Source of the DNA: Odiellus spinosus
Taxonomy: Eukaryota; Arthropoda; Arachnida; Opiliones; Phalangiidae
Direction: 5' to 3'
Assembly: GCA_963920705.1 (NCBI GenBank)
Contig: CAWUCO010000283.1
Location: forward strand, 372,001-436,000
Length of the DNA: 64,000 nt
The translations under genes were made by a program, and so were the position numbers. How positions within the stretch are numbered: position 1 is the stretch's first letter; each line of letters starts with the position of its first letter. This document shows, one piece after another, positions 3-47,248 of the stretch. The notes beneath the pieces were generated by a model. It was given only the letters and a program-made list of their open reading frames with translations. It had not been told where the DNA came from and made no database searches.

Positions 3-179
3 AAAATTCGCATCCAGCAACAGAACCCGCTCTTTTGGCAACCGCGCTTAAAGGAAAATGCGGCTTCTTTTTGTAAAACTGCTCTTGTAAGAAAACGCTC
101 TTTATGGGAGTGCGCACATGGGAACTTCTCTTTTTGCAACTGGGCTTATGGCTATATACCAACAAAATTAAGTATTAGT
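3..179 (+). pseudogene. Upstream part of an ORF split by the palindromic element
   Basis: A reading frame is open from the window edge to the 6-bp target duplication ATTAGT (174-179), 59 codons without a stop. It continues in the same frame on the far side of the insertion (11909-12058). The DNA has a loose 16-17-bp periodicity (GCTCTTTT-like words), so part of it could be an old minisatellite rather than a gene. I do not recognise the product, and the start lies outside the window. The two observations, open frame and exact TSD, are seen directly; that it was once one gene is inference. Confidence 0.3.
174..179. repeat. Target site duplication ATTAGT, left copy
   Basis: ATTAGT directly precedes the left terminus AGTAGTAGGTG of the palindromic element. 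It recurs directly after the right terminus at 11903-11908. A 6-bp duplication next to 5'-AG...CT-3' ends is the known integration signature of Polintons/Mavericks. Confidence 0.8.
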
Positions 180-617
180 AGTAGTAGGTGAAAGGGGGAT
201 TCTCCCTCAGGAGCGAGGGAGCAAAATGGCTCACCGCTATCTATCCCCTCTCAGCTGCCACCCCCTTTTTAAGAGTCAAATATTTGTTATCTTATCACAT
301 TTTTTCTTATCTTAAGTTGTTATCTGGATTTTAAGATATGCTATCTTATATTTTCCAATTATTTTTTCTTTCCTATAGGTACAGGACTCTAAATTAAACC
401 TTTAAAACCTTTAAAACCTTTAAAATCCAAGTTTTTTACCCCCCCCCCCCCAATCTGATCTCCAATGTTTTATACCCAGGTTTTCACTATAATTAAAGGT
501 CTTTAAACTAGGTCTGGATTATGTTCGCTAAGACTCATATTTAATAATGCTTGTATGCTTAACATTAAGATAAGAGACAATATTTTTATAGATTAAGTAT
601 ATTTATTAGAAAACCCA

Positions 618-1245
618 TCACAAAACCAGTTATAAAATGCAAAATATCACAATTAGAAATATATTAAGACACGTTTGAAGTCAAATTATGGCGTTAAAAT
701 ATCCGTAAATTAGGTTTAAATATCATTAAGACCCATTTTTAACAGAAAAACCAGTTATACTATGCTAAACATTTCAATTTCAATTACATTAAGACGCTTG
801 AAATTAAATTATGGCATTAAAATATCTATAAATTAAGTTTAAATATCATTAAGGACTTATAACTGAAAAACCAACTGTACAATGCTAAATATCTAAATTT
901 TAATTACATTAAGACATGCTTGAGGATAAATTAAGGCATAAAAATATGTATAATTTAAGTTTAAACATGACTAAGGGTAATTTTTAACCGAAAAACCAGC
1001 TATACAATGCAAAATATCTAAATTTTAATTACTTTAAGACACGCTTGAGGATAAATTACGGCATTAAAATATCCATAATTTAAGTTTAAATATCATTAAG
1101 GACTGTTTCTAACAGAGAACCACTTATACAATGCTAAATTTTCTAATTTGAACTACATTGAGACACGCTTGAAGTTAAATTATGGCATCCAAATATCTCT
1201 AAATTAGGTTTAAATATCATTAAGAACTATTTTTAACAGAAAAAC
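618..1245 (+). repeat. Subterminal tandem repeat, five ~125-bp units (left arm)
   Basis: Five diverged units each begin near AAACCAGTTATACAATGC and end ATCATTAAG...TTTTTAACAGA. They lie between the outer terminus and the polymerase stop codon. The mirror set is at about 10838-11465. Iterated subterminal sequences often bind transposition or replication proteins, but that role here is inference. Confidence 0.8.
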
Positions 1246-1356
1246 CCGTTTAAATGGGGGTATTATCAATACAATTACATCATTTAAGTTCAAAAACCTA
1301 GCCATCGAAGTATGTTTTTACATGAATTACACGAATTACACGGGAAAAGCCTTAAA

Positions 1357-4300
1357 TCAATCAACTTCCATAGCGTTTTCTTTAGTCTTATAATGCCCAT
1401 GAGCCAGAGTTGTTACTCCATCTGGAAGTATGTATCTCTTATCATCTGCGGCTGTCATCCCGCACTTATTTTGTTGAATAGTATAGAGATCATGATTATA
1501 ACTCTGAATCTTCGATATTTCTACTCTTTTAATTTCTTTCTTAAAAAGACAGTCGCGATAACTCTGATGGTTTAAAGCATGTTTTACCACGCTCTTACTT
1601 ACACCCTTCGCTCGTTTCGTCTCCACACCCCCTTTAGCATACGAATAGAGTTTCGGTCTTAAGGCCACGAGTTCAGAGATAGGTTCACCGAAACTTTCAT
1701 CTTTCATCTTGCCAAGTTTCTTTTTATTAGCCTCGCTGTGAAGGAAATGAGTCTTGGGCATATCGGAAGTGTCATAGAGATGAGAATGAAGCAACATGTC
1801 TTTGTAGATATCATCCGTCTCAATTCGATAGGTTAAAGAGTCGGTGTCCGTCAACAGCAGCTTAGCTTTATCGCCATACTGTGCTCTTATTTGGTTGTAA
1901 TGGAAGTCATACATGAGGCACTTGCTTAGTTCAAGAATGCAGAAGCCAACATATATAGGTCGGTTGAGTAGAAGCTTCTTCCGATAGCTACTAACGGCAA
2001 CTAGATCCTCGTTGAACACATTGACAGACTTGAATGACGGAGAGGCCACGACTTTGGTCAAACGCTGCTCGGTGTGAATTAGTTCAACATTCGATCTAAT
2101 TCTCAAATTCTCCATCGTCTTGCCAAACACACTATTATTCATAAGCTTGAAAAACGACTTTTCAAACTCATTATCTGCCAGTTTCCTCTGTTCAGTATTG
2201 AAGTCTATGTAAGACTTCATCCATGGAGATTGATTAAATTCGATCACTTGATGGATTTTGGTTAGTCGCTTTCCTAAAGCTACATAGAGCTGAAGGTTGC
2301 GGTAATGTATGACGTAACCTGACTTGTCATTTAAATTGGGTAATAACTTTCTAACATTAGGAGAGTGTTTTAAACCTAATGTTTTTAACAACTCTGTAGA
2401 GTATGGTGAAAGCATATCTTCGGTAATGTTGATATTTTCAGGAGCTAATGGATAGTCATTGTGACTGTCATGTAAAGTGGATGGATACTCTAAATCTACT
2501 TTTAATATGTAGCCCTTAGCGGAATGGGAATCAACTTTTAAAAAATCAAGGCAGCTAATTTCTTCATCGCTCAACCAACGAAACCCACCAATTGGCATGG
2601 GTTGGGACATTGCCCAGCCATACAGATTATTAGCGTCATAATACATAATATATGTCTTAGGATCTGTGGGGCTATAATCCTCTAAATAAGGGTTATTTGC
2701 CTTGGCATATCGATGAGATATCATCGAGATACCCCCGCGAATACCTTCCTCGCATAATAAATGCATGTCAATATCAGTAAATAGTTCGAGTTCAACATTC
2801 GACTTCTTAAGACAAGCCTGCCAAGCGAGGCCGGGAGAAGTTAGAAAATGACCGCCAGGATCTAAACCATAATGTTTCGCACATACATCTCTAAAATTCT
2901 GAAAAACATCAGCTAGCAGTAATACATCCGTTTTATTATATAAATCCTGATACTCCCCGAGATTTTTAATTTTAAAACTCTCCCAAACTGTCTTGGCAAA
3001 GTCATAATCATCCAGAGAGAGAGATTCACCAGTCAAAATATTATGGAAGGCTTCTTTAGGTGGTAGCGATGCTTCTAAAAATTTATCCGCGCAATCTATA
3101 TAATCATAAGGAAATACTCCTTTCCTGGTTAACAGAGTGATCTTATCTTGAGGAATGCAAGAAGCTTAAAGTGTTGCAAGCCTGCCTTCGATAAATTTTT
3201 TACAAGACTGTCTAAGGAACTAGACATAAACTGAAATGAATCAATAAATTTATACCCACCTATTGTGAACGAAACATATTTCTCAACATTATTTGCAATA
3301 CAAAACAACTTCCTATCTTTATACTTTCCAGCGCTTGACATCAAAATGTGACTATCATAATTTCTTAAATTGTGGAATACAACAGGGATGCTTTTAGGGG
3401 CTTTGTAGTTTAAATTGCAAACGTTACAGGCAGGGCCACGATATCTACCAGTCATGTGATCATGATCCCTGACCTTTTCTACCAGCTGCTTCCTACAAAT
3501 ATGACAAATAGCTGCGTGTCTAAAACTCTCCTCCTCCTCTTCAGACATAACCATAGGTTTGTTGGTCCCAACCCTGCCTAAAAGTTCAGCTTCGATATCC
3601 ATTAAAGAATCGAGAAACCTTTCGGAAGTATCACTCCCCCTGTACTGAACCGGCCCCTTAAAAAGCTCGCCGTTATAGTCAACAACGAGATAGCAGAAGC
3701 CCGAAGGGATATGTTTCCCGATTTTAGTGGTGGAAGAACCGTTAGGGTCTGGTTTGCAAATAGATATTTTCGGGATCATGCATTCAAAATCGGCGTAAAT
3801 AATATAGGGGGTTTTAAAGGAATACCGATGACCCTCGAATTTCAATACATTTTCACCAACTATAGGCATTTCAATTCTTTGAGCTGCATGTGCACTACAA
3901 CTAGTTGAATGTTGTTCTAGAATAGCCCTATTACTAAATCTATGTAGACATCTTCTACAGTAGAACTTCATACACTTATGTTTGGTCAATGACCCAAGAA
4001 GACGACTCAAACTTCTAATTGAACAATAATGCTTTTGAAAACCATCAGATACAAGGAGCAAATCCACTTCCCTATCCTCTGTCACAATTTTCTCACTAAC
4101 GAATAGCGGAATTACCTCGCTATCTTCGTATCCAAAAACATTAATTGATAAATTATTCAACTCCTCAAATCTAGAAACTTGAAAGATCTCCATTGGAAAG
4201 GAAAATCCTTTAACGTAAAGATCATTCAGGAATGGTTCATAGCTTGAGACGCGATCACTATTCTTCACTATTTCTTTATGAAGAGAAGCTAGAATACTGT

Positions 4301-5201
4301 AGATAAAACAACGAGTATCCTTGTTTTGAACATTAACAATGGCTTTCTTAAGTTTTAGAGCCCGAGGGAGGTTCATATAACTAGACCCGTATAGAGGGGT
4401 ATACATCAAAATGTTTAAATCTAACCTTTCAATAGTGTCAACCACCCAACCACTACCAAGATGAATGAAATTGTTACACTGATTTAAAATATGAGCAAAA
4501 GACTGATCTAACTTAAGACTAACGATATCTTTAGAGGTTAGGGTTACCCGACAAAAACCGTGGAAAACCGATGTTGTATATCTATCCCCACCAAGATCTG
4601 AATCCATGACTCGTATAAACCTAACAACTACTGCCACGTACCATTTAACGGCCCTCTTGCCCTCTCCCATTACTCTTAAAATCTCGCATCTAAGTTTTGG
4701 CTTAACAAGTTGAAAAAACTTGCTAAGATCGGGATATTCAATCTTTGGGCGAAATTTATAGCAACCAACCCGTCCACCAATTGCGCTGACGTTTTCAAAC
4801 AATTCACAAGCATCCTCCGACTCACTACCTTCACCATACTCCACCTCAACATCTGATTCTACATCTAAACAACTGCCACAATTATGCGAATCCAAGTCAG
4901 ACTGCGTGTCGAAATGTTTAGAACATTGACCGCAAGCCTTCTGAACGGTGGAACCTAGAGAGAAAAAAGAAAAAATTAATAAAAACCATCAACTAATTAT
5001 AATAACGTTTAAATTTGAAAGATATATACCTAATAATCCTTCGTGAGCCACCCTATGCTTTTTCAAATTAGCAAGCCGTAAAAACACCTTGTTACAGATA
5101 TCGCATCTAAATACGGGCTGCTCGCCATGTTGTTCCTTCTCATGGCGTTTCAGATTTTTCCGTTGAGAGAATGTTCTATCACAGTTAGAGCATGAAAACA
5201 T
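1357..5201 (-). pseudogene. Family-B DNA polymerase, left-arm copy, frameshifted
   Basis: This is the mirror copy of the intact gene at 6876-10727, with the same layout: a zinc-finger exon (5201 to about 5030), a 75-bp intron and a long second exon. A 7-bp deletion near 3165 shifts the frame just after the exonuclease/EndoVII region, and a stop follows at 3129. The remainder, from the third exonuclease motif through polymerase motifs A (DANNLYG), B (NNSVFGK) and C (DTDS), stays open as a 559-codon frame (3036-1357). Two amino-acid differences from the right copy are also visible (Phe for Ser, Lys for Met). As it stands the arm cannot encode a whole polymerase; the two halves are present but out of frame. 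Confidence 0.85.
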
Positions 5202-5459
5202 TATTAAATTATAAAAATAGCCTCGATCGGGAGCTTGACATCAAGATGACTTTACTCTTCAAAGAACTAGCGTACAATGAATTTAAATCGAGAGCTACTG
5301 CTGGATATACCCCAAGATAAGATAAGGATAATGAGAACCACAAATATAGTCAATCTTTTCAGTTTAGACTACTATAAAATGCATGTACGAACCAGAACTT
5401 GAAATCCTTCCGAACTCAAAAACTTCAAAGTAAATAGGAAAATCTCCATAAACCTTATC

Positions 5460-5747
5460 TTATCCAAGTTGAAAATTCCAAGAAAGTATTGTATAGCCAA
5501 TATGTTGAAACATGTAAAACCCGACACATTTCACCACTCTCTTACAAACATAAAAACATGATATGATATACAAACTTGAATAAATAAAAATTAGAACGCT
5601 TAGAAAATTCACTCTTAGGCTTATCACATCTCCAAGTTTGTGTTTACAAGCAAACATAGCGAAACTCTTATTATAATTGTAAACAAGGGAAAAAACTATT
5701 TCATCATTGTATGTGGTAAAACCTAAATCGACATTGTAAAAATCCAT
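5460..5747 (-). CDS. Small hydrophobic protein, left-arm copy
   Basis: A 95-codon ORF identical in sequence to the mirrored one at 6330-6617. It starts with ATG and has a central hydrophobic stretch (about residues 47-70, VNFLSVLIFIYSSLYIIS...) long enough for one membrane helix. No family is recognised. It sits just upstream of the polymerase copy on the same strand, about 260 bp from it. It may be a short gene of the element or chance; conservation between arms is not evidence of selection because the whole arms are near identical. Confidence 0.3.
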   Translation of the reverse strand: MDFYNVDLGFTTYNDEIVFSLVYNYNKSFAMFACKHKLGDVISLRVNFLSVLIFIYSSLYIISCFYVCKRVVKCVGFYMFQHIGYTILSWNFQLG

Positions 5748-5797
5748 CTAGAAGTCAAATATTAATATTCTCTGGGATATAAGAGGATCAATTTACA

Positions 5798-5952
5798 GAT
5801 AAGGTCAATTCTTGATGCTTCCAGCTTATCTCAATAATGGATAAGAACTTGTAAGAACCTCTGATAAGAAATATCCCTTATCTTATCTCGACGCTATGTA
5901 ATCTATCTTATCTCATTCGTAGATAAACACTTGTAAAAACCCAGATAAGAGA
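5798..5952. promoter_or_regulatory. Cluster of GATAAG/CTTATC motifs near the palindrome centre (left)
   Basis: About nine GATAA or TTATC hexamer cores fall within roughly 150 bp, including tandem CTTATCTTATCTC. The mirror cluster is at about 6125-6279. The motif also recurs near the outer ends (about 280-350). It is GATA-factor-like, and its position upstream of the divergent genes suggests promoter DNA. Function is inferred only. Confidence 0.35.
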
Positions 5953-6022
5953 TATCTATAAGTAAGAAAAAAAAATTTAAAATCGAAAATAAATTTAAAA
6001 AAGGGGGAGGGGGGGGGCGTCT

Positions 6023-6053
6023 CCCATGTTCGCCTCGGCGGAGCATAAAAAGT
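6023..6053. other. Palindrome spacer with nested hairpin, flanked by G/C runs
   Basis: The non-mirrored centre is 31 bp long. It contains ATGTTCGCC-tc-GGCGGAGCAT, itself an imperfect hairpin, so the dyad continues almost to the axis. On either side are a G-run (6003-6017) and a C-run (about 6057-6068). Such a centre could fold as a hairpin telomere or a turn-around point in the replication of a linear element; this is inference. Confidence 0.6.
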
Positions 6054-6329
6054 AGACGCCCCCCCCCCTCCCCCTTTTTTAAATTTATTTTCGATTTTAA
6101 ATTTTTTTTTCTTACTTATAGATATCTCTTATCTGGGTTTTTACAAGTGTTTATCTACGAATGAGATAAGATAGATTACATAGCGTCGAGATAAGATAAG
6201 GGATATTTCTTATCAGAGGTTCTTACAAGTTCTTATCCATTATTGAGATAAGCTGGAAGCATCAAGAATTGACCTTATCTGTAAATTGATCCTCTTATAT
6301 CCCAGAGAATATTAATATTTGACTTCTAG

Positions 6330-6617
6330 ATGGATTTTTACAATGTCGATTTAGGTTTTACCACATACAATGATGAAATAGTTTTTTCCCTTGTTTACAA
6401 TTATAATAAGAGTTTCGCTATGTTTGCTTGTAAACACAAACTTGGAGATGTGATAAGCCTAAGAGTGAATTTTCTAAGCGTTCTAATTTTTATTTATTCA
6501 AGTTTGTATATCATATCATGTTTTTATGTTTGTAAGAGAGTGGTGAAATGTGTCGGGTTTTACATGTTTCAACATATTGGCTATACAATACTTTCTTGGA
6601 ATTTTCAACTTGGATAA
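6330..6617 (+). CDS. Small hydrophobic protein, right-arm copy
   Basis: A 95-codon ORF starting at ATG, reading MDFYNVDLGF... and ending ...ILSWNFQLG. It has a hydrophobic segment around residues 47-70 followed by a Cys/Lys-rich stretch (CFYVCKRVVKC), which looks like a single-pass membrane protein. No known family is recognised. It lies 258 bp upstream of the polymerase start on the same strand and downstream of the GATA-motif cluster, so it could share the promoter or be a leader ORF. Chance cannot be excluded at this length. Confidence 0.35.
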   Translation: MDFYNVDLGFTTYNDEIVFSLVYNYNKSFAMFACKHKLGDVISLRVNFLSVLIFIYSSLYIISCFYVCKRVVKCVGFYMFQHIGYTILSWNFQLG

Positions 6618-6875
6618 GATAAGGTTTATGGAGATTTTCCTATTTACTTTGAAGTTTTTGAGTTCGGAAGGATTTCAAGTTCTGGTTCGTACATGCATTT
6701 TATAGTAGTCTAAACTGAAAAGATTGACTATATTTGTGGTTCTCATTATCATTATCTTATCTTGGGGTATATCCAGCAGTAGCTCTCGATTTAAATTCAT
6801 TGTACGCTAGTTCTTTGAAGAGTAAAGTCATCTTGATGTCAAGCTCCCGATCGAGGCTATTTTTATAATTTAATA

Positions 6876-9800
6876 ATGTTTTCATGCTCTAACTGTGATA
6901 GAACATTCTCTCAACGGAAAAATCTGAAACGCCATGAGAAGGAACAACATGGCGAGCAGCCCGTATTTAGATGCGATATCTGTAACAAGGTGTTTTTACG
7001 GCTTGCTAATTTGAAAAAGCATAGGGTGGCTCACGAAGGATTATTAGGTATATATCTTTCAAATTTAAACGTTATTATAATTAGTTGATGGTTTTTATTA
7101 ATTTTTTCTTTTTTCTCTCTAGGTTCCACCGTTCAGAAGGCTTGCGGTCAATGTTCTAAACATTTCGACACGCAGTCTGACTTGGATTCGCATAATTGTG
7201 GCAGTTGTTTAGATGTAGAATCAGATGTTGAGGTGGAGTATGGTGAAGGTAGTGAGTCGGAGGATGCTTGTGAATTGTTTGAAAACGTCAGCGCAATTGG
7301 TGGACGGGTTGGTTGCTATAAATTTCGCCCAAAGATTGAATATCCCGATCTTAGCAAGTTTTTTCAACTTGTTAAGCCAAAACTTAGATGCGAGATTTTA
7401 AGAGTAATGGGAGAGGGCAAGAGGGCCGTTAAATGGTACGTGGCAGTAGTTGTTAGGTTTATACGAGTCATGGATTCAGATCTTGGTGGGGATAGATATA
7501 CAACATCGGTTTTCCACGGTTTTTGTCGGGTAACCCTAACCTCTAAAGATATCGTTAGTCTTAAGTTAGATCAGTCTTTTGCTCATATTTTAAATCAGTG
7601 TAACAATTTCATTCATCTTGGTAGTGGTTGGGTGGTTGACACTATTGAAAGGTTAGATTTAAACATTTTGATGTATACCCCTCTATACGGGTCTAGTTAT
7701 ATGAACCTCCCTCGGGCTCTAAAACTTAAGAAAGCCATTGTTAATGTTCAAAACAAGGATACTCGTTGTTTTATCTACAGTATTCTAGCTTCTCTTCATA
7801 AAGAAATAGTGAAGAATAGTGATCGCGTCTCAAGCTATGAACCATTCCTGAATGATCTTTACGTTAAAGGATTTTCCTTTCCAATGGAGATCTCTCAAGT
7901 TTCTAGATTTGAGGAGTTGAATAATTTATCAATTAATGTTTTTGGATACGAAGATAGCGAGGTAATTCCGCTATTCGTTAGTGAGAAAATTGTGACAGAG
8001 GATAGGGAAGTGGATTTGCTCCTTGTATCTGATGGTTTTCAAAAGCATTATTGTTCAATTAGAAGTTTGAGTCGTCTTCTTGGGTCATTGACCAAACATA
8101 AGTGTATGAAGTTCTACTGTAGAAGATGTCTACATAGATTTAGTAATAGGGCTATTCTAGAACAACATTCAACTAGTTGTAGTGCACATGCAGCTCAAAG
8201 AATTGAAATGCCTATAGTTGGTGAAAATGTATTGAAATTCGAGGGTCATCGGTATTCCTTTAAAACCCCCTATATTATTTACGCCGATTTTGAATGCATG
8301 ATCCCGAAAATATCTATTTGCAAACCAGACCCTAACGGTTCTTCCACCACTAAAATCGGGAAACATATCCCTTCGGGCTTCTGCTATCTCGTTGTTGACT
8401 ATAACGGCGAGCTTTTTAAGGGGCCGGTTCAGTACAGGGGGAGTGATACTTCCGAAAGGTTTCTCGATTCTTTAATGGATATCGAAGCTGAACTTTTAGG
8501 CAGGGTTGGGACCAACAAACCTATGGTTATGTCTGAAGAGGAGGAGGAGAGTTTTAGACACGCAGCTATTTGTCATATTTGTAGGAAGCAGCTGGTAGAA
8601 AAGGTCAGGGATCATGATCACATGACTGGTAGATATCGTGGCCCTGCCTGTAACGTTTGCAATTTAAACTACAAAGCCCCTAAAAGCATCCCTGTTGTAT
8701 TCCACAATTTAAGAAATTATGATAGTCACATTTTGATGTCAAGCGCTGGAAAGTATAAAGATAGGAAGTTGTTTTGTATTGCAAATAATGTTGAGAAATA
8801 TGTTTCGTTCACAATAGGTGGGTATAAATTTATTGATTCATTTCAGTTTATGTCTAGTTCCTTAGACAGTCTTGTAAAAAATTTATCGAAGGCAGGCTTG
8901 CAACACTTTAAGCTTCTATCTTCTTGCATTCCTCAAGATAAGATCACTCTGTTAACCAGGAAAGGAGTATTTCCTTATGATTATATAGATTGCGCGGATA
9001 AATTTTTAGAAGCATCGCTACCACCTAAAGAAGCCTTCCATAATATTTTGACTGGTGAATCTCTCTCTCTGGATGATTATGACTTTGCCAAGACAGTTTG
9101 GGAGAGTTTTAAAATTAAAAATCTCGGGGAGTATCAGGATTTATATAATAAAACGGATGTATTACTGCTAGCTGATGTTTTTCAGAATTTTAGAGATGTA
9201 TGTGCGAAACATTATGGTTTAGATCCTGGCGGTCATTTTCTAACTTCTCCCGGCCTCGCTTGGCAGGCTTGTCTTAAGAAGTCGAATGTTGAACTCGAAC
9301 TATTTACTGATATTGACATGCATTTATTATGCGAGGAAGGTATTCGCGGGGGTATCTCGATGATATCTCATCGATATGCCAAGGCAAATAACCCTTATTT
9401 AGAGGATTATAGCCCCACAGATCCTAAGACATATATTATGTATTATGACGCTAATAATCTGTATGGCTGGGCAATGTCCCAACCCATGCCAATTGGTGGG
9501 TTTCGTTGGTTGAGCGATGAAGAAATTAGCTGCCTTGATTTTTTAAAAGTTGATTCCCATTCCGCTAAGGGCTACATATTAAAAGTAGATTTAGAGTATC
9601 CATCCACTTTACATGACAGTCACAATGACTATCCATTAGCTCCTGAAAATATCAACATTACCGAAGATATGCTTTCACCATACTCTACAGAGTTGTTAAA
9701 AACATTAGGTTTAAAACACTCTCCTAATGTTAGAAAGTTATTACCCAATTTAAATGACAAGTCAGGTTACGTCATACATTACCGCAACCTTCAGCTCTAT

Positions 9801-10727
9801 GTAGCTTTAGGAATGCGACTAACCAAAATCCATCAAGTGATCGAATTTAATCAATCTCCATGGATGAAGTCTTACATAGACTTCAATACTGAACAGAGGA
9901 AACTGGCAGATAATGAGTTTGAAAAGTCGTTTTTCAAGCTTATGAATAATAGTGTGTTTGGCAAGACGATGGAGAATTTGAGAATTAGATCGAATGTTGA
10001 ACTAATTCACACCGAGCAGCGTTTGACCAAGGTCGTGGCCTCTCCGTCATTCAAGTCTGTCAATGTGTTCAATGAGGATCTAGTTGCCGTTAGTAGCTAT
10101 CGGAAGAAGCTTCTACTCAACCGACCTATATATGTTGGCTTCTGCATTCTTGAACTAAGCAAGTGCCTCATGTATGACTTCCATTACAACCAAATAAGAG
10201 CACAGTATGGCGATAAAGCTAAGCTGCTGTTGACGGACACCGACTCTTTAACCTATCGAATTGAGACGGATGATATCTACAAAGACATGTTGCTTCATTC
10301 TCATCTCTATGACACTTCCGATATGCCCAAGACTCATTTCCTTCACAGCGAGGCTAATAAAAAGAAACTTGGCAAGATGAAAGATGAAAGTTTCGGTGAA
10401 CCTATCTCTGAACTCGTGGCCTTAAGACCGAAACTCTATTCGTATGCTAAAGGGGGTGTGGAGACGAAACGAGCGAAGGGTGTAAGTAAGAGCGTGGTAA
10501 AACATGCTTTAAACCATCAGAGTTATCGCGACTGTCTTTTTAAGAAAGAAATTAAAAGAGTAGAAATATCGAAGATTCAGAGTTATAATCATGATCTCTA
10601 TACTATTCAACAAAATAAGTGCGGGATGACAGCCGCAGATGATAAGAGATACATACTTCCAGATGGAGTAACAACTCTGGCTCATGGGCATTATAAGACT
10701 AAAGAAAACGCTATGGAAGTTGATTGA
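6876..10727 (+). CDS. Family-B DNA polymerase with zinc fingers and EndoVII-like domain
   Basis: Two exons, 6876-7047 and 7123-10727, are joined by a 75-bp phase-1 intron (AG|GTATAT...CTCTCTAG|GT), giving 1258 codons. Two C2H2 fingers open the protein (CSNCDRTF..H....H and CDICNKVF..H...H, residues 4-53), and a further Cys/His cluster (CGQC) follows across the splice. A C2HC-type finger lies near 385-410 (YCRRCLHRF). The 3'-5' exonuclease motifs are YADFECM (~442), HNLRNYDSH (~583) and NKTDVLLLADVF (~732). Inserted between them is an endonuclease VII-like zinc domain (CHICRK...DHDHMTGRYRG...CNVCN, ~540-566). Polymerase motifs A (YYDANNLYGW, ~830), B (NNSVFGKTMEN, ~996), C (LLTDTDSL, ~1093) and RPKLYSY (~1158) are all present. 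This is the viral/organellar, usually protein-primed PolB type found in Polintons and related viruses. It appears complete and catalytically intact. Confidence 0.9.
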
Positions 10728-10837
10728 TTTAAGGCTTTTCCCGTGTAATTCGTGTAATTCATGTAAAAACATACTTCGATGGCTAGGTTTTTGAACTTAA
10801 ATGATGTAATTGTATTGATAATACCCCCATTTAAACG

Positions 10838-11465
10838 GGTTTTTCTGTTAAAAATAGTTCTTAATGATATTTAAACCTAATTTAGAGATATTTGGATGCC
10901 ATAATTTAACTTCAAGCGTGTCTCAATGTAGTTCAAATTAGAAAATTTAGCATTGTATAAGTGGTTCTCTGTTAGAAACAGTCCTTAATGATATTTAAAC
11001 TTAAATTATGGATATTTTAATGCCGTAATTTATCCTCAAGCGTGTCTTAAAGTAATTAAAATTTAGATATTTTGCATTGTATAGCTGGTTTTTCGGTTAA
11101 AAATTACCCTTAGTCATGTTTAAACTTAAATTATACATATTTTTATGCCTTAATTTATCCTCAAGCATGTCTTAATGTAATTAAAATTTAGATATTTAGC
11201 ATTGTACAGTTGGTTTTTCAGTTATAAGTCCTTAATGATATTTAAACTTAATTTATAGATATTTTAATGCCATAATTTAATTTCAAGCGTCTTAATGTAA
11301 TTGAAATTGAAATGTTTAGCATAGTATAACTGGTTTTTCTGTTAAAAATGGGTCTTAATGATATTTAAACCTAATTTACGGATATTTTAACGCCATAATT
11401 TGACTTCAAACGTGTCTTAATATATTTCTAATTGTGATATTTTGCATTTTATAACTGGTTTTGTG
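10838..11465 (-). repeat. Subterminal tandem repeat, five ~125-bp units (right arm)
   Basis: Mirror image of the array at 618-1245, between the polymerase stop codon and the outer terminus. The units share GGTTTTTC(A/T)GTTA...CTTAATGATATTTAAAC cores. Confidence 0.8.
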
Positions 11466-11902
11466 ATGGGTTTTCTAATAAATATACTTAATCTATAAAA
11501 ATATTGTCTCTTATCTTAATGTTAAGCATACAAGCATTATTAAATATGAGTCTTAGCGAACATAATCCAGACCTAGTTTAAAGACCTTTAATTATAGTGA
11601 AAACCTGGGTATAAAACATTGGAGATCAGATTGGGGGGGGCGGTAAAAAACTTGGATTTTAAAGGTTTTAAAGGTTTTAAAGGTTTAATTTAGAGTCCTG
11701 TACCTATAGGAAAGAAAAAATAATTGGAAAATATAAGATAGCATATCTTAAAATCCAGATAACAACTTAAGATAAGAAAAAATGTGATAAGATAACAAAT
11801 ATTTGACTCTTAAAAAGGGGGTGGCAGCTGAGAGGGGATAGATAGCGGTGAGCCATTTTGCTCCCTCGCTCCTGAGGGAGAATCCCCCTTTCACCTACTA
11901 CT

Positions 11903-11908
11903 ATTAGT
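11903..11908. repeat. Target site duplication ATTAGT, right copy
   Basis: Second copy of the 6-bp duplication, directly abutting the right terminus ...CTACTACT. Confidence 0.8.
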
Positions 11909-12080: not shown

Positions 12081-14158
12081 CTGATTTGAAAGACCTGATG
12101 TGAAAGACCTGATGTGAAAGACATGATTTGAAAACACATGATTTGAAAGACATTTGAAAAACATGATTTGAAAGACCTGATTTGAAACCACTGATTTGAA
12201 AGACCTGATTTGAAAGACCTGATTTGAAAGACCTGATTTGAAAGACCTGATGTGAAAGACCTGATGTGAGAAACCTGATGTAAAAAACCTGATGTGAAAA
12301 ACCTGAGGTGAAAAGCCTGATGTGAAAAACCTGATGTGAGAGACCTGATGTGAGAGACCTGATGTGAAAGACCTGATGTGAAAAACCTGAGGTGAAAAGC
12401 CTGATGTGAAAAACTTGATGTGAAAAACCTGATGTGAAAAACCTGATTTGAGAGACCTGATGTGAGAGACCTGATGTGAAAGACCTGATGTGAAAAACCT
12501 GATGTGAAAAACCTGTTTCGAAAAACCTGATTCGAAAAACCTGATTCGAAAGACCTGATTCGAAAGACCTGATTCGAAAGACCTGATTCGAAAAGCCTGA
12601 TTCGAAAAGCCTGACTCGAAAAGCCTGACTCGAAAAGCCTGACTCGAAAAGCCTGATTCGAAAAGCCTGATTCGAAAGGCCTGATTCGAAAGGCCTGATT
12701 CGAAAGACATGATTCGAAAGACCTGATTCGAAAGACCTGATTCGAAAGACCTGATTTGAAAGACCTGATGTGAAAGACCTGATGTGAAAGACCTGATGTG
12801 AAAGACCTGATTTGAAAGACCTGATTTGAAAACACTGATTTGAAAAGACATGATTTGAAAAGACATGATTTGAAAACACATGATTTGAAAACACATGATT
12901 TGAAAAACATGATTTGAAAGACCTGATTTGAAAACACATGATTTGAAAGACATTTGAAAAACATGATTTGAAAGACCTGATTTGAAAACACTGATTTGAA
13001 AGACCTGATGTGAAAGACCTGATGTGAAAAACCTGATGTGAAAAACCTGAGGTGAAAAGCCTGATTTGAAATACTTGATGTGAAAAGCCTGATGTGAAAA
13101 ACTTGATGTGAAAAACCTGATGTGAGAGACCTGAATTGAGAGACCTGATGTGAAAGACCTGATGTGAAAAACCTGATGTGAAAAACTTGATGTGAAAAAC
13201 CTGATGTGAAAAACCTGATGTGAGAGACCTGAATTGAGAGACCTGATGTGAAAGACCTGATGTGAAAAACCTGTTTCGAAAAACCTGATTCGAAAGACCT
13301 GATTAGAAAGACCTGATTCGAAAGACCTGATTCGAAAAGCCTGATTCGAAAAGCCTGACTCGAAAAGCCTGACTCGAAAAGCCTGACTCGAAAAGCCTGA
13401 TTCGAAAAGCCTGATTCGAAAAGCCTGATTCGAAAAGCCTGATTCGAAAAGGCTGATTCGAAAAGCCTGATTCGAAAAGCCTGATTCGAAAAGCCTGATT
13501 CGAAAGGCCTGATTCGAAAGGCCTGATTCGAAAGGCCTGATTCGAAAGGCCTGATTCGAAAGGCCTGATTCGAAAGGCCTGATTCGAAAGACCTGATTCG
13601 AAAGACCTGATTCGAAAGACCTGATTCGAAAGACCTGATTCGAAAGACCTGATTCGAAAGACCTGATTCGAAAGACCTGATTCGAAAGACCTGATTCGAA
13701 AGACCTGATTCGAAAGACCTGATTCGAAAGACCTGATGTGAAAGACCTGATGTGAAAGACCTGATGTGAAAGACCTGATGTGAAAGACCTGATTTGAAAG
13801 ACCTGATTTGAAAACACTGATTTGAAAAGACATGATTTGAAAAGACATGATTTGAAAACACATGATTTGAAAAACATGATTTGAAAGACCTGATTTGAAA
13901 ACACTGATTTGAAAGACCTGATTTGAAAGACCTGATGTGAAAGACCTGATGTGAAAGACCTGATGTGAAAGACCTGATGTGAAAGACCTGATGTGAAAGA
14001 CCTGATGTGAAAGACCTGATGTGAAAGACCTGATGTGAAAGACCTGATGTGAAAGACCTGATGTGAAAGACCTGATGTGAAAGACCTGATGTGAAAAACC
14101 TGATGTGAAAAACCTGATGTGAAAAACCTGATGTGAAAAACCTGATGTGAAAAGCCTG
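12081..14158 (-). repeat. 14-bp satellite array A
   Basis: Roughly 148 tandem copies of a 14-bp unit, plus-strand consensus CTGATTCGAAAGAC. Variants with TTTG, GTGT, GGTG and ACTC cores are grouped in blocks, which shows local homogenisation. The minus strand has no stop in any of its three frames over long stretches; each frame spells the same 14-residue period (SNQVFRIRSFESGL). The array is cut at 14158 by the BEL/Pao element and resumes as array B. Confidence 0.95.
14154..14158. repeat. Target site duplication GCCTG of the BEL element, left
   Basis: GCCTG precedes the LTR at 14159 and recurs after the other LTR at 20482-20486. It is a satellite-unit fragment, so the element landed inside the array. 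Confidence 0.8.
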
Positions 14159-14606: not shown

Positions 14607-17027
14607 CTACTGAATTTCTATGGGATACAACAATTTTAAAGGTCTTTTAATAATATGTCCATTTGTATTTCGAATTGAACAAGCTCTTATTATTCCGTCA
14701 CGTCCGGGATGTAATTCTGTGATTCGGCCAGTCTTCCAAAGGTGTCGAGGTAACCGATCATCCTTAATAGTGACAACGTCATCGATTTTGATCTCTGGTT
14801 GATTATCTTTGGCTCGAATAACCTTCTGCGCAGTTCGAAGTTCAAGTAGATATTCCTGTCTCCATCGGATCCAAAAGCGGTTGAGTAACTCCTGTCTAAA
14901 TTTCCATCTCTTGGTCAGATTATCTTTCGTTGACCGGACTTCAAACATTTTAAATTTGCGGGAAGGAAGCGCGTCGTGTCGTCGTCCTATTAAAAAATGT
15001 GACGGGGTTAACGGTGATGGCTCATCTTGGTCACTACTAATGTAAGTGATCGGTCGCGAGTTCATTATGGATTCTATTTCAATCATCACAGTTTCCATTT
15101 CTTCAAATGTGAGGAGCGCGCGTCCCAATGTTCTTTTAATGCAATCCTTCATGGTCCTTACCATCCGCTCCCACATGCCACCCCACCATGGTGCACGGTC
15201 TACGATAAATCTCCACTCTATACGTTTTTCTCCAAAATACTCCTTGAGTTCGTCTGTTACAACTGAGTCCCATAACCTCGATATCTCCTTGTCGGTTCTT
15301 TTGAACGTTTTGGCGTTGTCAGACAGAAAAATATTACTGACTCCTCGTCTTCCAATGAATCTCTTCAGAGCCAGGATGAAGTGCTCAGCGCTAAGACTTG
15401 AAACGAGTTCGAGATGTACGGCTCTGGTAGTAGCGCACGTAAAGAGGGCAATGTAGCTTTTGGATTGGTTCCAAGATTTCGTTTCATCGTTATAATGCTT
15501 TATAATCACAGGGCCAGCGAAATCGACTCCAGTAGCTTGGAAGGCTATGCTTGCTGTAACTCTTTCGGGTGGTAATGGCGCTGTGTCTTGTTCAAACGGT
15601 TTCGATTTCAAGATTCGGCATTTCTGGCATTTGGATAATACGTTTTTAATTATTTGACGTCCTCTTGGTACCCAGAATCTTGATCTCAAACTGGCTAACG
15701 TAGCACTAACACCCATGTGCTTCAGTTGAACGTGATACTTCATAATGAGAAGACGTGTAAATGCGTGATCTTCTGGTAGTAGTATAGGGTGTTTCTCTTC
15801 GTATTCTAAATCCGAAAATTGAAGTCGTCCGCCAAGTCTCAATACATCTTCTTGATCCATAAAAGCTTTTAAATCGGATATCCTTGAACTTTGAGCTATG
15901 GCAACGTTATTCTTGACGGCCATAATTTCGTCTTGAAACGATTCTAACTGCGTTCTTCTGATCCAATACATCTCTCCCTCTAAGATTTCTTCGGTACTGA
16001 GAGCTCCTGTGTGCCGCTTCTCTAAATGAAGTTTCAGATTTGAAATGTATCTCTTCACACAAACTATAGTTCGTATCACTCTTTCATAATTTGAGTGATT
16101 CGTCAACTCCAGAAGCGCTTCCCTTTGTGGCGTCTTTATATTCAATGCTGCTAATACTTCAACCATGGGCTTTAGTCTTCTTTCAGCTTCGATATGGAGT
16201 TCATCTTTGTTTACTGATATTGTTTTAGCTTGTTCTGGCCATTCTCGTTCAGACTTCCTTAAGAACTCCGGACCCTTCCACCATAGATCACTTGATATTA
16301 GATCTATTACATTCAACCCTCTGGTCAAAATGTCTGCTGGATTCATCACTCCTGGAATGTGTTTCCACAGGGCGGGGTCACATGCGTTTTGGATTTCGCT
16401 AGTCCGGTTACTGATAAAGGGTTTCCATTGCTTGGTTGCAGCCTTGATCCATGAAATGGTTATCGTCGAGTCACTCCAGAAATGAACCGTTGGATTTTCC
16501 TTGACGAAATACGATCGTACTGTGGTCATTAATTTGGTTCCCACCACGGCGCCCATAAGTTCAAGCCTTGGAATGGTTAACTTTTTAAGTGGAGCCACTC
16601 TTGATTTGGCTACCACTAAATTTACGGTTACGTCTTCCTTGGAGTTTTCAATTCTAATGTAGACTGCGGCTCCGTATGCTTTCTCGCTCGCGTCTGTAAA
16701 GCAGTGTAATTGTACTTTATCTTCTCGCATTGTTCCGTAAAATCGGGGGATTTTAATTCCTTCTAAATGACGTAACTCCGAACACCACTTCTCCCATCGT
16801 TCCTTCAAGTCTTCCGGTATCGTTTCGTCCCATTGAGTACCCCTCTGCCAAATCTCTTGAAATAGGCATTTAATTCGGATCGTGAATGGGGTCACAAATC
16901 CTATTGGATCAAAAATTCTGGACGAAGATTGCAGAATAAACCGTTTTGTGTTCTCTCGGCTACAAAGAAATTCCAACAGACTTGTTACATCGAATCGGAA
17001 GATATCATTTTCTGGCTGCCATGCCAA
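14607..17027 (-). pseudogene. BEL/Pao pol, C-terminal part: RNase H, integrase, DUF5641
   Basis: An 806-codon open segment. Early residues hold the Pao-type connection and RNase H (CFTDASEKAYGAAVY, then SDSTITISW). A zinc-binding HHCC integrase head follows (KYHVQLKHMG...CQKCR). The catalytic core shows VDFAGP and SDNAKTF, and the downstream region contains the third acidic residue. The last ~100 residues fit the DUF5641 tail (IKIDDVVTIKDDRLPRHLWKTGRI). It ends in a normal stop just before the polypurine tract. Upstream it is separated from RT by a frameshift in an A-run near 17160 and an in-frame TAA near 17065, so it cannot be made as part of a full Pol without those lesions. Confidence 0.88.
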
Positions 17028-20481: not shown

Positions 20482-20843
20482 GCCTGAGGTGAAAAGCCTG
20501 ATGTGAAAAACCTGTTTCGAAAAACCTGATTCGAAAGACCTGATTCGAAAGACCTGATTCGAAAGACCTGATTCGAAAGACCTGATTCGAAAGACCTGAT
20601 TCGAAAGACCTGATTCGAAAGACCTGATTCGAAAGACCTGATTCGAAAGACCTGATTCGAAAGGCCTGATTCGAAAAGCCTGATTCGAAAAGCCTGATTC
20701 GAAAAGCCTGACTCGAAAAGCCTGATTCGAAAAGCCTGACTCGAAAAGCCTGATTCGAAAAGCCTGATTCGAAAAGCCTGATTCGAAAAGCCTGATTCGA
20801 AAAGCCTGATTCGAAAAGCCTGATTCGAAAAACACGATTTGAA
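20482..20843 (-). repeat. 14-bp satellite array B
   Basis: Continuation of array A beyond the BEL insertion, starting with the duplicated GCCTG. About 26 units, mostly CTGATTCGAAAGAC then CTGATTCGAAAAGC types. It ends ...GATTTGAAAAACTTTACGC, the same border as array C. Confidence 0.95.
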
Positions 20844-22152
20844 AAACTTTACGCAACTTCGTGTTTAAAGGAATCTCGAAACGCCATTCAAATTGTTCAA
20901 AGAGCGTTTATGCATGCATAACAAGCCAGTGCTATAGCATAATTCTTTTCAGCCTCTTTTACAATGTCATGGGTCTAGCTATTTCTATGGGCTTGACCAT
21001 CTTGTTATCATTGAATCGTTGGATTAACAAAAGATAATTGCGCAGTACAGCCTAATGATACCGATGTATTTATTTATATTGCTAGAATTTGTATTCTACT
21101 TATTTTCATTTAAAATAAACATTTCACACGGGTTACCAAGGTAAACCATAATAAAGAAGATTAGATATAAAGGCGCATTCACAGGGTGTTCAAGATAAAA
21201 ATGACTTAATAAAAAATAGATGTTATATCTATTTTTTATTAAGTCATTTCGTTTCCATATAAAATGGCTTAAAGCCGCATTCGCACGTGTATCCAAGATA
21301 AATTAATAAAGATTAGATAAAAAGGCGCGTTCACAAGTAGCCAAGTTGAAAATTACTTAATAAAAATTAAATATAAAGACACGATCACACGGATATTCAA
21401 GATATAGAGATGTAATATTTTATGGGGCGTGTACGTGAAAATTTGAAATGTATTTTGCTATTTCTGCTAAATATTGCGAATGAGAAAATTTATATATATT
21501 CATCTTGTAATCAAATATTAAATATATAATAATAAATCTATATAAATAAAAATGAAAATTTGTCTCGCGCTCCTATATGTGTTTTCCTATATAACATTCT
21601 TCCGATTCCGATGAAACTTTGGTGAGTTGTTGCGCGCACGCCCGCGAAGGTTCCTGATTTAGTTAAATCATTAAACAGAAGGTGGCGCGGCAGTCGTTTC
21701 AACAAATGTGTGTATTTCCAATACCATTCACCCGATTGAGATGAAACTTTGTTGAAGGGCGTGGCATGGTTCATGGGGTAAATTTCTGCAGTATTCGAGA
21801 GACTGAAAATAGAACTAAACTTTCGTAGATACGTCATTCACGTGACGCTCCGCTTCCAAGTGTCGTTGGAACTTCACTATGTAATATCATTAAATATGCC
21901 TCTTTAACTTTCTACCAGTATGTGACAATAGTTTCGTAGCCGCGAACTTTTAAGGACTTTTCATGGTAAAAATAGTGTAGCCCCAAAAGTAACCATATAG
22001 CGAGAAGTGTGCATATTTCTTTTTTACTTATTTAAACGAAAAAAAAATTAAAAAATAAACCTTAACATAGTTTACATGGATTTTATTAGATTTTTTTTTT
22101 TTTTGAAGTTTTAGAGTTGGTACGAGGAGAGGTAATATTTTGGTTTCCCAAC
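20844..22152 (+). repeat. 1.3-kb satellite-associated tail, copy 1
   Basis: Nearly identical to 28801-30105 (a few substitutions and indels). Both follow a 14-bp satellite array at the same border. It contains several copies of AAGATTAGATAAAAAGGCGCGTTCACA and GTATCCAAGATA, also found in reverse near 62970 and 63380, and a short inverted repeat AATAAAAAATAGATGTTATATCTATTTTTTATT at 21208-21240. Short ORFs here are shared by both copies but show no domains. The right end is cut after TTTTGGTTTCCCAAC by the LINE. Confidence 0.9.
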
Positions 22153-24806: not shown

Positions 24807-24807
24807 T

Positions 24808-27800
24808 GATTTGAAAGACCTGATTCGAAAAGCCTGATTCGAAAAGCCTGATTCGAAAGGCCTGATTCGAAAGACCTGATTCGAAAGACCTGATTCGAAA
24901 GACCCGATTTGAAAGACCTGATTTGAAAGACCTGATTTGAAAGACCTGATGTGAAAGACCTGATGTGAAAACACTGATTTGAAAAGACATGATTTGAAAA
25001 GACATGATTTGAAAGACATTTGAAAAACATGATTTGAAAGACCTGATTTGAAAACACTGATTTGAAAGACCTGATTTGAAATACCTGATGTGAAAGACCT
25101 GATGTGAAAGACCTGATGTGAAAGACCTGATGTGAAAAACCTGATGTGAAAAACCTGATGTGAAAAACCTGAGGTGAAAAGCCTGAGGTGAAAAGCCTAA
25201 TGTGAAAAGCCTGATGTGAAAAACCTGATGTGAAAAACCTGTTGTGAAAAACCTGATGTGAAAAACTTGATGTGAAAAACCTGATGTGAAAAACCTGATG
25301 TGAAAAACCTGACGTGAGAAACCTGACGTGAGAAACCTGACGTGAAAAACCTGACGTGAAAAACTTGATGTGAAAAACCTGATGTGAAAAACCTAACGTG
25401 AAAAACCTGACGTGAGAAACCTGACGTGAGAAACCTGACGTGAAAAACCTGATGTGAAAAACCTGATGTGAAAAACCTGATGTGAAAAACCTGATGTGAA
25501 AAACCTGATGTGAGAGACCTGATGTGAGAGACCTGATGTGAGAGACCTGATGTGAAAAGCCTGATGTGAAAAGCCTGATGTGAAGGACCTGATGCGAAAG
25601 ACCTGATGCGAAAGACCTGATGCGAAAGACCTGATGCGAAAGACCTGATGCGAAAGACCTGATGCGAAAGACCTGATGCGAAAGACCTGATGCGAAAAAC
25701 CTGATTCGAAAGACCTGATTCGAAAGACCTGATTCGAAAAGCCTGATTCGAAAAGCCTGATTCGAAAGCCTGATTCGAAAAGCCTGATTCGAAAAGCCTG
25801 ATTCGAAAAGCCTGATTCGAAAGGCCTGATTCGTAAGGCCTGATTCGAAAGACCTGATTCGAAAGACCTGATTCGAAAGACCTGATTCGAAAGACCTGAT
25901 TCGAAAGACCTGATTCGAAAGACCTGATTCGAAAGACCTGATTCGAAAGACCTGATTCGAAAGACCTGATTCGAAAGACCTGATTCGAAAGGCCTGATTC
26001 GAAAGGCCTGATTCGAAAGGCCTGATTCGAAAGACCTGATTCGAAAGACCTGATTCGAAAGACCTGATTCGAAAGACCTGATTCGAAAGACCTGATTCGA
26101 AAGACCTGATGTGAAAGACCTGATGTGAAAACACTGATGTGAAAACACTGATTTGAAAAGACATGATTTGAAAAGACATGATTTGAAAAGACATGATTTG
26201 AAAACACATGATTTGAAAGACATTTGAAAAACATGATTTGAAAGACCTGATTTGAAAACACTGATTTGAAAGACCTGATTTGAAAGACCTGATTTGAAAG
26301 ACCTGATGTGAAAGACCTGATGTGAAAGACCTAATGTGAAAGACCTGATGTGAAAGACCTGATGTGAAAGACCTGATGTGAAAGACCTGATGTGAAAAAC
26401 CTGAGGTGAAAAACCTGAGGTGAAAAACCTGAGGTGAAAAACCTGAGGTGAAAAGCCTGAGGTGAAAAGCCTAATGTGAAAAGCCTGATGTGAAAAACCT
26501 GATGTGAAAAACCTGATGTGAAAAACCTGTTGTGAAAAATCTGATGTGAAAAACTTGATGTGAAAAACCTGATGTGAAAAACCTGATGTGAAAAACCTGA
26601 TGTGAGAGACCCGATGTGAAAAGCCTGATGTGAAAAGCCTGATGTGAAAGACCTGATATGAAAGACCTGATGTGAAAGACCTGATGTGAAAGACCTGATG
26701 TGAAAGACCTGATGTGAAAAACCTGATGTGAAAGACCTGATGTGAAAGACCTGATGTGAAAGACCTGATGTGAAAGACCTGATGTGAAAGACCTGATTCG
26801 AAAGACCTGATTCGAAAAGCCTGATTCGAAAAGCCTGATTCGAAAAGCCTGATTCGAAAGACCTGATTCGAAAGACCTGATTCGAAAGACCTGATTCGAA
26901 AGACCTGATTTGAAAGACCTGATTTGAAAGACCTGATTTGAAAGACCTGATTTGAAAGACCTGATTTGAAAGACCTGATTTGAAAACACTGATTTGAAAA
27001 GACATGATTTGAAAGACATTTGAAAAACATGATTTGAAAGACCTGATTAGAAAACACTGATTTGAAAGACCTGATTAGAAAACACTGATTCGAAAAGCCT
27101 GATTCGAAAAGCCTGATTCGAAAAGCCTGATTCGAAAGACCTGATTCGAAAGACCTGATTCGAAAGACCTGATTCGAAAGACCTGATTCGAAAGGCCTGA
27201 TTCGAAAGACCTGATTCGAAAGACCTGATTCGAAAGACCTGATTCGAAAGACCTGATTCGAAAGACCTGATTCGAAAGACCTGATTCGAAAGACCTGATT
27301 CGAAAGACCTGATTCGAAAGACCTGATTCGAAAGACCTGATTCGAAAGACCTGATTCGAAAGACCTGATTCGAAAGGCCTGATTCGAAAGGCCTGATTCG
27401 AAAGGCCTGATTCGAAAGGCCTGATTCGAAAGACCTGATTCGAAAGACCTGATTCGAAAGACCTGATTCGAAAGACCTGATTCGAAAGACCTGATTTGAA
27501 AGACCTGATGTGAAAGACCTGATGTGAAAACACTGATTTGAAAAGACATGATTTGAAAAGACATGATTTGAAAACACATGATTTGAAAGACATTTGAAAG
27601 ACCTGATTTGAAAACACTGATTTGAAAACACTGATTTGAAAGACCTGATTTGAAAGACCTGATTTGAAAGACCTGATGTGAAAGACCTGATGTGAAAGAC
27701 CTGATGTGAAAGACCTGATGTGAAAGACCTGATGTGAAAGATATGATGTGAAAGACCTGATGTGAAAAACCTGATGTGAAAAACCTGATGTGAAAAACCT

Positions 27801-28800
27801 GTTGTGAAAAACCTGTTGTGAAAAATCTGATGTGAAAAACGATGTGAAAAACCTGATGTGAAAAACCTGATGTGAGAGACCCGATGTGAAAAGCCTGATG
27901 TGAAAAGCCTGATGTGAAGGACCTGATGTGAAAGACCTGATATGAAAGACCTGATGTGAAAGACCTGATGTGAAAGACCTGATGTGAAAAACCTGATTCG
28001 AAAGACCTGATTCGAAAGACCTGATTCGAAAAGCCTGATTCGAAAAGTCTGATTCGAAAAGCCTGATTCGAAAGACCTGATTCGAAAGACCTGATTCGAA
28101 AGACCTGATTCGAAAGACCTGATTTGAAAGACCTGATTTGAAAGACCTGATTTGAAAACACTGATTTGAAAAGACATGATTTGAAAGACATTTGAAAAAC
28201 ATAATTTGAAAGACCTGATTTGAAAGACCTGGTTTGAAAGACCTGATTTGAAAACACTGATTTGAAAGACCTGATTTGAAAGACCTGGTTTGAAAGACCT
28301 GGTTTGAAAGACCTGATTTGAAAACACTGATTTGAAAGACCTGATTTGAAAGACCTGATTTGAAAGACCTGATGTGAAAGACCTGATGTGAAAGACCTGA
28401 TGTGAAAGACCTGATGTGAAAGACCTGATGTTTAAGACCTGATGTGAAAGATCTGATGTGAAAGACCTAATGTGAAAAACCTGATGTGAAAAACCTGATG
28501 TGAAAAGCCTGATGTGAAAAACCTGAGGTGAAAAGCCTGAGGTGAAAAGCCTGAGGTGAAAAGCCTGATTCGAAAAACCTGATTCGAAAGACCTGATTCG
28601 AAAGACCTGATTCGAAAGACCTGATTCGAAAGACCTGATTCGAAAGACGTGATTCGAAAGACCTGATTCGAAAAGCCTGATTCGAAAAGCCTGATTCTAA
28701 AAGCCTGATTCGAAAAGCCTGACTCGAAAAGCCTGATTCGAAAAGCCTGATTCGAAAAACCTGATTCGAAAAACCTGATTCGAAAAACATGATTTGAAAA
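24808..28800 (-). repeat. 14-bp satellite array C
   Basis: About 285 units of the same 14-bp family as A and B over 4.0 kb. Marker blocks with GACATGATTTGAAAA and a short GACATTTGAAAAACATG unit recur near 24985, 26165, 27000, 27545 and 28170. They separate runs of TTCG, TTTG, GTGT and GGTG variants, an irregular higher-order pattern. A run of ATGCG variants (25585-25690) is unique to this array. Minus-strand frames are open for up to 954 codons, but this is a property of the repeat unit. Confidence 0.95.
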
Positions 28801-46151: not shown

Positions 46152-46392
46152 GTCCTCTCAAACAGGCTCTTTGGCGCCCGGGGGAGCTCGGGGTAAGGTT
46201 TATATCTGCCGCATTATAGCTGGCAACTCCGTCTCGTATTATTGTTCTCAAACCGACCACGTGTATAGACAACGCATGTTTCGCGTACGCATTGGCACTT
46301 TTTACCGAAGCAAGAAACGAAGTTCTAGTTCCCAGATAGCCCGCGTATCGAACACCCTCGGCCTTGAAACGCCTTTTGACCTAGATTTTTGG

Positions 46393-47248
46393 GTTAAGGG
46401 ATTTGAAGGGGGATTAAGGGATTTGAAAGGGGGTTAAGGGATTTGAAAGGGGATTAAGGGATTTGAAAGGGGATTAAGGGATTTGAAAGGGGATTAAGGG
46501 ATTTGAAAGGGGATTAAGGGATTTGAAAGGGGATTAAGGGATTTGAAAGGGGGTTAAGGGATTTGAAAGGGGGTTAAGGGATTTGAAAGGGGGTTAAGGG
46601 ATTTGAAAGGGGGTTAAGGGATTTGAAAGGGGGTTAAGGGATTTGAAAGGGGGTTAAGGGATTTGAAAGGGGGTTAAGGGATTTGAAAGGGGGTTAAGGG
46701 ATTTGAAAGGGGGTTAAGGGATTTGAAAGGGGGTTAAGGGATTTGAAAGGGGGTTAAGGGATTTGAAAGGGGGTTAAGGGATTTGAAAGGGGGTTAAGGG
46801 ATTTGAAAGGGGGTTAAGGGATTTGAAAGGGGGTTAAGGGATTTGAAAGGGGGTTAAGGGATTTGAAAGGGGGTTAAGGGATTTGAAAGGGGGTTAAGGG
46901 ATTTGAAAGGGGCTTAAGGGATTTGAAAGGGGGTTAAGGGATTTGAAAGGGGGTTAAGGGATTTGAAAGGGGGTTAAGGGATTTGAAAGGGGGTTAAGGG
47001 ATTTGAAAGGGGGTTAAGGGATTTGAAAGGGGGTTAAGGGATTTGAAAGGGGGTTAAGGGATTTGAAAGGGGGTTAAGGGATTTGAAAGGGGGTTAAGGG
47101 ATTTGAAAGGGGGTTAAGGGATTTGAAAGGGGGTTAAGGGATTTGAAAGGGGGTTAAGGGATTTGAAAGGGGGTTAAGGGATTTGAAAGGGGGTTAAGGG
47201 ATTTGAAAGGGGGTTAAGGGATTTGAAAGGGGGTTAAGGGATTTGAAA
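46393..47248 (+). repeat. 20-bp minisatellite, ~43 units
   Basis: GTTAAGGGATTTGAAAGGGG repeats almost perfectly in 20-bp register. Units 2-7 carry GATTAAGGG, one unit (46912) has GCTTAAGGG, and the first unit is 1 bp shorter. The G-rich strand has G3 and G5 runs separated by 4- and 8-nt loops. Confidence 0.97.

Follow-up and report, generated by a model that had tools for sequence, protein, structure and literature searches.

Adintoviruses carry capsid and integrase genes, and in foldback transposons and palindromic defective adenovirus genomes long inverted repeats fill most of the molecule and a strand can snap back. Termini of AG or AGT repeats are given as a Polinton motif in PMC8097293, and the PolB of a Spodoptera Maverick is described in PMC5803895 as having an endonuclease-VII-like domain, as does the polymerase reported here. 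We analysed a window, i.e. a whole stretch of 64,000 nucleotides of Odiellus spinosus DNA (contig CAWUCO010000283.1, positions 372,001 to 436,000), in which a preliminary description had noted a Polinton-like element whose layout it knew from no described family. A literature search, with subscription papers largely outside its coverage, agreed with this, turning up no described case of a palindromic, fold-back or polymerase-only Polinton.

Structure of the element and its polymerase gene

The element is a single palindrome of ~11.7 kb with arms of ~5.84 kb that are 99.7% identical and a 42-bp central spacer (Table 1). The inverted-repeat search placed the arms at 176-6017 and 6060-11906, 42 nt apart, in three blocks at 99-100% identity; in a two-piece alignment of the arms 15 of the 5845 columns differed, including 5 substitutions, a 7-bp indel and 3 columns of a poly-C tract. 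Read inward, the terminus is AGTAGTAGGTGAAAGG on both sides, from 180 on the left and, as its complement, up to 11902 on the right; the element ends AGTAGT...ACTACT and its end type is AGTAGTAGG. A perfect 6-bp target-site duplication (TSD), ATTAGT, is present on both flanks.

Table 1. Features of the palindromic element (window coordinates).
Feature	Position	Strand	Read from
Left target-site duplication, ATTAGT	174..179	.	end reading
Left arm of palindrome, outer end to centre	180..6017	-	inverted-repeat search and arm alignment
Left terminus: AGT repeats and G/C-rich subterminal sequence, present at 14 family termini	180..228	.	terminal search
125-bp subterminal repeat, 5 tandem copies, left arm	622..1250	.	
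Left PolB copy, frame broken by the 7-bp difference near 3159; ORFs 1357-3036 and 3129-4895	1357..4895	-	
Central spacer and hairpin loop; loop identical in 5 further family-A centres that were read, and related to those of family B and C169	6018..6059	.	
Right arm of palindrome	6060..11902	+	
First coding exon with two C2H2 zinc fingers, then a predicted ~75-bp GT-AG intron (by eye)	6876..7048	+	
Intact PolB frame, 1181 aa	7182..10727	+	
125-bp subterminal repeat, 5 tandem copies, right arm	10834..11462	.	
Right terminus	11854..11902	.	end reading
Right target-site duplication, ATTAGT	11903..11908	.	end reading

The PolB copies of both arms point outward from the centre. The right copy is intact, whereas the 7-bp difference breaks the left one into frames of 588 and 559 aa. 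Besides PolB, an ORF scan of the right half found no ORF of more than 95 codons, and genes of the usual size for an integrase, capsid, ATPase or protease are therefore absent. These results bear out the preliminary description in its claims of one 11.7-kb palindrome with a 6-bp TSD, read here at both ends together with the termini, of inverted repeats that span the whole element and leave out those four genes, and of membership of the Polinton/Maverick lineage, for which a protein-primed PolB, AGT-repeat ends and a 6-bp TSD were all found. Its further claim that each half is a complete polymerase unit reading outward holds for the orientation of both copies and for the completeness of the right half; the frame of the left half is split.

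A protein search with PolB returned 7969 homologues. The best fold match was phi29 polymerase, which is of the protein-primed type and which the exonuclease and palm of PolB resemble; a sequence search of the PDB with PolB gave no match. The right-arm frame also carries an endonuclease-VII-like zinc motif. In the N-terminal part the fold matches were weak (E 0.06-0.4; OTU 4boz, E 0.06; Y-family polymerase 6jum, E 0.12), and together with a published scheme of TP-vOTU-EXO-PALM polymerases they tentatively suggest TP-like and vOTU-like regions; C196 and H289 were invariant in 15 of the 15 sequences aligned. As DNA, the centre of the palindrome was predicted to fold into a hairpin (-39 kcal/mol, z -8.7), but because any palindrome folds likewise this is informative only for the shape of the loop.

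Elsewhere in the window, a 1686-bp inverted repeat reported as 100% complementary (51600-53285 and 54552-56237, with 1266 bp between) has a DDE_Tnp_4 transposase frame in its right arm, mirrored in the left, i.e. it is a second transposon with a large inverted duplication, so that inverted duplication in this genome is not restricted to Polintons. Arrays of 14-bp repeats at 12081-14152, 20491-20847 and 24807-28799 (two of them CTGATTTGAAAGAC-like) give rise to spurious long open frames, and a 20-bp repeat, GGGTTAAGGGATTTGAAAGG, is present at 46391-47248 in 43 copies that are 99% alike. A Pao-type retrotransposon frame lies at 14607-17027 and a second, integrase-bearing retrotransposon frame at 36981-38357.

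Sister palindromes and the evolution of their arms

We searched the 443-Mb assembly (286 contigs) for further copies; only the best candidates were scored, and all copy counts are therefore lower bounds. A query of the terminal 521 bp gave 14 full-length matches that form seven facing pairs (family A, which includes the window element), six of them spaced ~11.72 kb apart and the seventh, on C17, spaced 16.3 kb apart with a 4.6-kb insertion in one arm. A second set of matches, ~80% identical to the query, forms six more pairs (family B): four are spaced ~11.55 kb apart, that on C72 has a 2.8-kb insertion in one arm and that on C137 has deletions. Two family-B fragments were also found, one of 1297 bp at C8:5.50M and one of 116 bp at C137:0.504M that carries the flank of another copy. 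Among the scored hits this query matched families A and B only, with no lone complete family-A arm among them, and the pairing of all 14 full-length matches upholds the view that the element is not the end of a longer ordinary Polinton.

The PolB search, in which the best 39 of 646 candidates were scored, added an older relative (81%) at C8:2842618-2853345 and a distant relative at C12:8005092-8019209 in which a convergent pair of PolB genes reads inward. No family-A monomer was found among the scored matches to the terminal query and to PolB. At C2:2278525, which carries a 74% PolB, the 4.0 kb read on the 5' side held no second PolB, and reading 3.5 kb beyond the gene at C13:19.84M gave no result. 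The oldest palindrome (C8:2.84 Mb) is embedded in a satellite array with, from match offsets, a periodicity of ~23 bp.

Fifteen palindromes have thus been read at both ends: seven of family A, six of family B, the older relative and the distant relative. The copies seen were all chromosomal. Their TSDs are 6 bp long, perfect in 15 of 15 and no two alike, i.e. the palindromes moved as units. The preliminary description had proposed a search for other palindromes with different TSDs, and this yielded 14 further loci, each TSD being different; recurrence of the layout at 14 further loci with perfect TSDs excludes a chance arrangement. That description had also read the element as a dimeric replication intermediate integrated as a unit. 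Integration as a unit with a TSD was confirmed, but the seven A and six B copies, the older relative and the variants shared between arms speak against a single accidental dimer and indicate that the palindrome is the inherited form.

An intact PolB frame from family A and one from family B are 89% identical in amino acids over 1181 codons, with dN 0.052 and dS 0.487 by NG86 and 0.055 and 0.384 by YN00 (dN/dS 0.11-0.14), and of the 26 arms that make up the 13 elements of these families, 21 have the full-length frame open. The substitution ratios indicate that PolB is evolving under purifying selection.

We compared the arms of six family-A elements, leaving out C17 because of its insertion and excluding the poly-C tract as well as everything inward of column 5800. 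The arms within an element differed by 0, 0, 1, 2, 6 and 8 events, whereas arms of different elements differed by 11.7 on average. True pairing of the arms scored 17; 45 of the 10395 possible pairings were as tight or tighter, the least being 13. In 14 of the 29 variable events the two arms agreed in all six elements, and C7 has four private substitutions, each present in both arms. Arms therefore evolve in concert in young copies, with new mutations reaching both arms. Both arms of C14 and of C5:9.44M equal the right arm of the window element exactly over 5830 bases, and at two sites (window positions 2011 and 5326) the right arm has a new state while the left arm still agrees with the other lineages; we read C14 and C5:9.44M as copies probably made from one arm. 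Two variants close to the centre are arm-specific and common to C12 and C5:3.53M, which implies that homogenisation was incomplete in some rounds.

In family B, the arms of C11 and C1 are identical over 5700 bases, and in the aligned parts the arms of C137 and C72 are 99.2-99.4% and 99.3-99.5% identical, respectively. In the old copy at C8:2.84M, the stretches read (ends and centre) show an arm identity of ~92-95% (a difference of ~5-8%), which indicates that the chromosome does not keep arms equal. The two arms are therefore alike in a new copy and diverge with time.

Possible exchange of centres and a probable second origin

A 381-bp query from the centre found all seven A elements and six B elements (with a one-sided match in C137), together with paired matches at no fewer than five further loci (C169, C14:18.93M, C8:4.70M, C3:3.46M and C3:3.09M) and part matches near C13:19.847M (two) and at C11:2.223M (one). 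At C169 all of the 3.0 kb read forms a palindrome (98.8%). The central part matches family B at 93-95% identity, whereas the adjoining PolB, present in several open pieces, is only 38-48% identical to that of the window element, a mosaic that may reflect exchange of the central segment between elements. The palindromic layout is therefore common to families whose PolBs differ by 11% to >50% in amino acids.

A monomeric PolB-only element of 7.65 kb is present at C5:2256186-2263830, with terminal inverted repeats (TIRs) of ~614 bp at 99.35%, ends AGTAGA and TSD AGAGTT; judged by eye from the ORFs, it lies within the PolB gene of a different Polinton-like element. The C12:8.0M palindrome is a relative of this monomer. 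Its arms are without the right TIR, its loop corresponds to the stretch immediately internal to that TIR and its centre contains a CCTAA repeat; it seems to have arisen by chance fold-back of a monomeric relative. Since PolB reads inward in this palindrome, palindromes probably arose at least twice.

A PF03175 search of the assembly gave 161 matches, with the best 77 of 571 candidates scored. The listed matches represent 77 loci, of which 75 have no listed opposite-strand partner within 20 kb. The sole opposite-strand pair among them (C4:1736311/1741751) is facing and 5.4 kb apart, possibly a further palindrome. One locus reads PolB, BIR and A32-like ATPase, the ATPase being below the Pfam cut-off. 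The remaining loci are presumed to be ordinary Polintons, which are possible integrase donors. Viral contigs gave no match to a single PolB protein and two matches to a PolB alignment. Both matching contigs have further ORFs that by eye are ordinary Polinton genes, and the longest inverted repeats found were 62 and 37 nt (in 15.4 kb of the 17.4-kb contig and 13.5 kb of the 15.1-kb contig), so that palindromic relatives were found only within the host. An ORF of one of these contigs, L038, that presumably encodes a capsid protein had no match in the host genome in a search that, being without a positive control, is uninformative.

A hairpin model, its alternatives and known systems

We lean towards a reading in which the window element represents a Polinton-derived, PolB-only transposon lineage that takes the form of a full-length palindrome, would replicate through a hairpin and would be integrated in trans. 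Every gene except that for the protein-primed polymerase would have been lost, with the element persisting as a palindrome. PolB would prime from its own predicted terminal-protein domain at the AGT-repeat ends and displace one strand; this strand, being self-complementary, would snap back into a 5.86-kb hairpin with one terminus; and PolB would then start at that single end and copy round the central loop, restoring the 11.7-kb palindrome. Mismatch repair in the hairpin would make both arms alike, so that in this proposal the arm becomes the unit of inheritance. An integrase acting in trans, most likely from the ordinary Polintons of the same genome, would insert the product with a 6-bp TSD.

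The concerted pattern of the arms could also arise by conversion between them soon after insertion, and it is conceivable, if unlikely, that the palindromes replicate as ordinary two-ended duplexes whose arms are kept alike by gene conversion in the chromosome. Long palindromes do undergo conversion, and the outer part of C12 looks converted, with two differences near the centre remaining. However, the persistence of arm differences (~5-8% in the parts read of C8:2.84M, ~0.8% in C137 and the 7-bp difference in the window) makes in-place conversion a weak explanation, and both arms of C14 and of C5:9.44M match one window arm but not the other. Rather less probable is that the element is a defective genome, i.e. 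a non-autonomous parasite of ordinary Polintons that is copied and integrated by their enzymes, its own PolB being a passenger. Adenoviruses have palindromic defective genomes, the element is without an integrase, and the genome is rich in PF03175-type PolB loci, one of them beside an A32-like ATPase and a BIR gene. Against this, the low dN/dS between palindromic families and the 21 open arms argue that its own polymerase matters, and the first 521 bp match families A and B only, among the scored hits.

Repeated fold-back of a monomeric element, each palindrome being an independent accident, seemingly accounts for C12:8.0M, whose loop can be traced to the C5:2.26M monomer, but as a general explanation it is very improbable: the position and related sequence of the centre are common to families A, B and C169, the centre is common to the seven and six copies within families A and B, and no family-A monomer is among the scored matches. 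An artefact of assembly or sequencing, e.g. unsplit fold-back reads, is less credible still. Near-identical inverted arms are a recognised artefact signature, and the window contains the further inverted repeat at 51600-56237 with its reported full complementarity; yet the arms stop exactly at the TSD in 15 of 15 palindromes, they differ from each other, and nearly all of the listed PF03175-type loci (75 of 77) are without a listed partner within 20 kb.

Returning to the hairpin reading, we are evenly divided over a wider proposal, namely that there is a class of self-synthesising transposons living as hairpins, with one protein-primed terminus and a closed loop outside the chromosome and a full palindrome inside it, in which the arm is the inheritance unit and the central loop serves as a replication cassette that elements hand on to one another even when their polymerases are highly dissimilar. 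If true, this would mean that the loss of one end does not stop a protein-primed replicon from persisting, even when it encodes nothing but its polymerase, and that self-folding keeps its sequence clean. The many near-identical copies would make the cycle of Polinton replication and integration testable in a small element, and may show how capsid-less, plasmid-like lineages can branch from virus-like transposons.

With foldback transposons and palindromic defective adenovirus genomes the element shares long inverted repeats and a strand that could snap back, but here they belong to a lineage that is coding, present in many copies flanked by TSDs, and conserved in its polymerase. Its PolB is 47% identical to a PolB named Parasteatoda house spider adintovirus; unlike adintoviruses, the element is without capsid and integrase genes and is palindromic. 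It resembles Polintons/Mavericks, as these are described in PMC8097293, in its protein-primed PolB, AGT-repeat ends and 6-bp TSD, and differs from them in having no integrase, ATPase, protease or capsid gene and in carrying its one gene twice. Whereas the inverted repeats of vertebrate Mavericks measure 46-1447 bp, here the repeat spans the whole element instead of forming short ends around a unique interior. Cytoplasmic and mitochondrial linear plasmids, presented in PMC11071308 as capsid-less relatives that keep the protein-primed polymerase, offer a further parallel; in contrast to these, the window element is chromosomal, flanked by TSDs and palindromic throughout.
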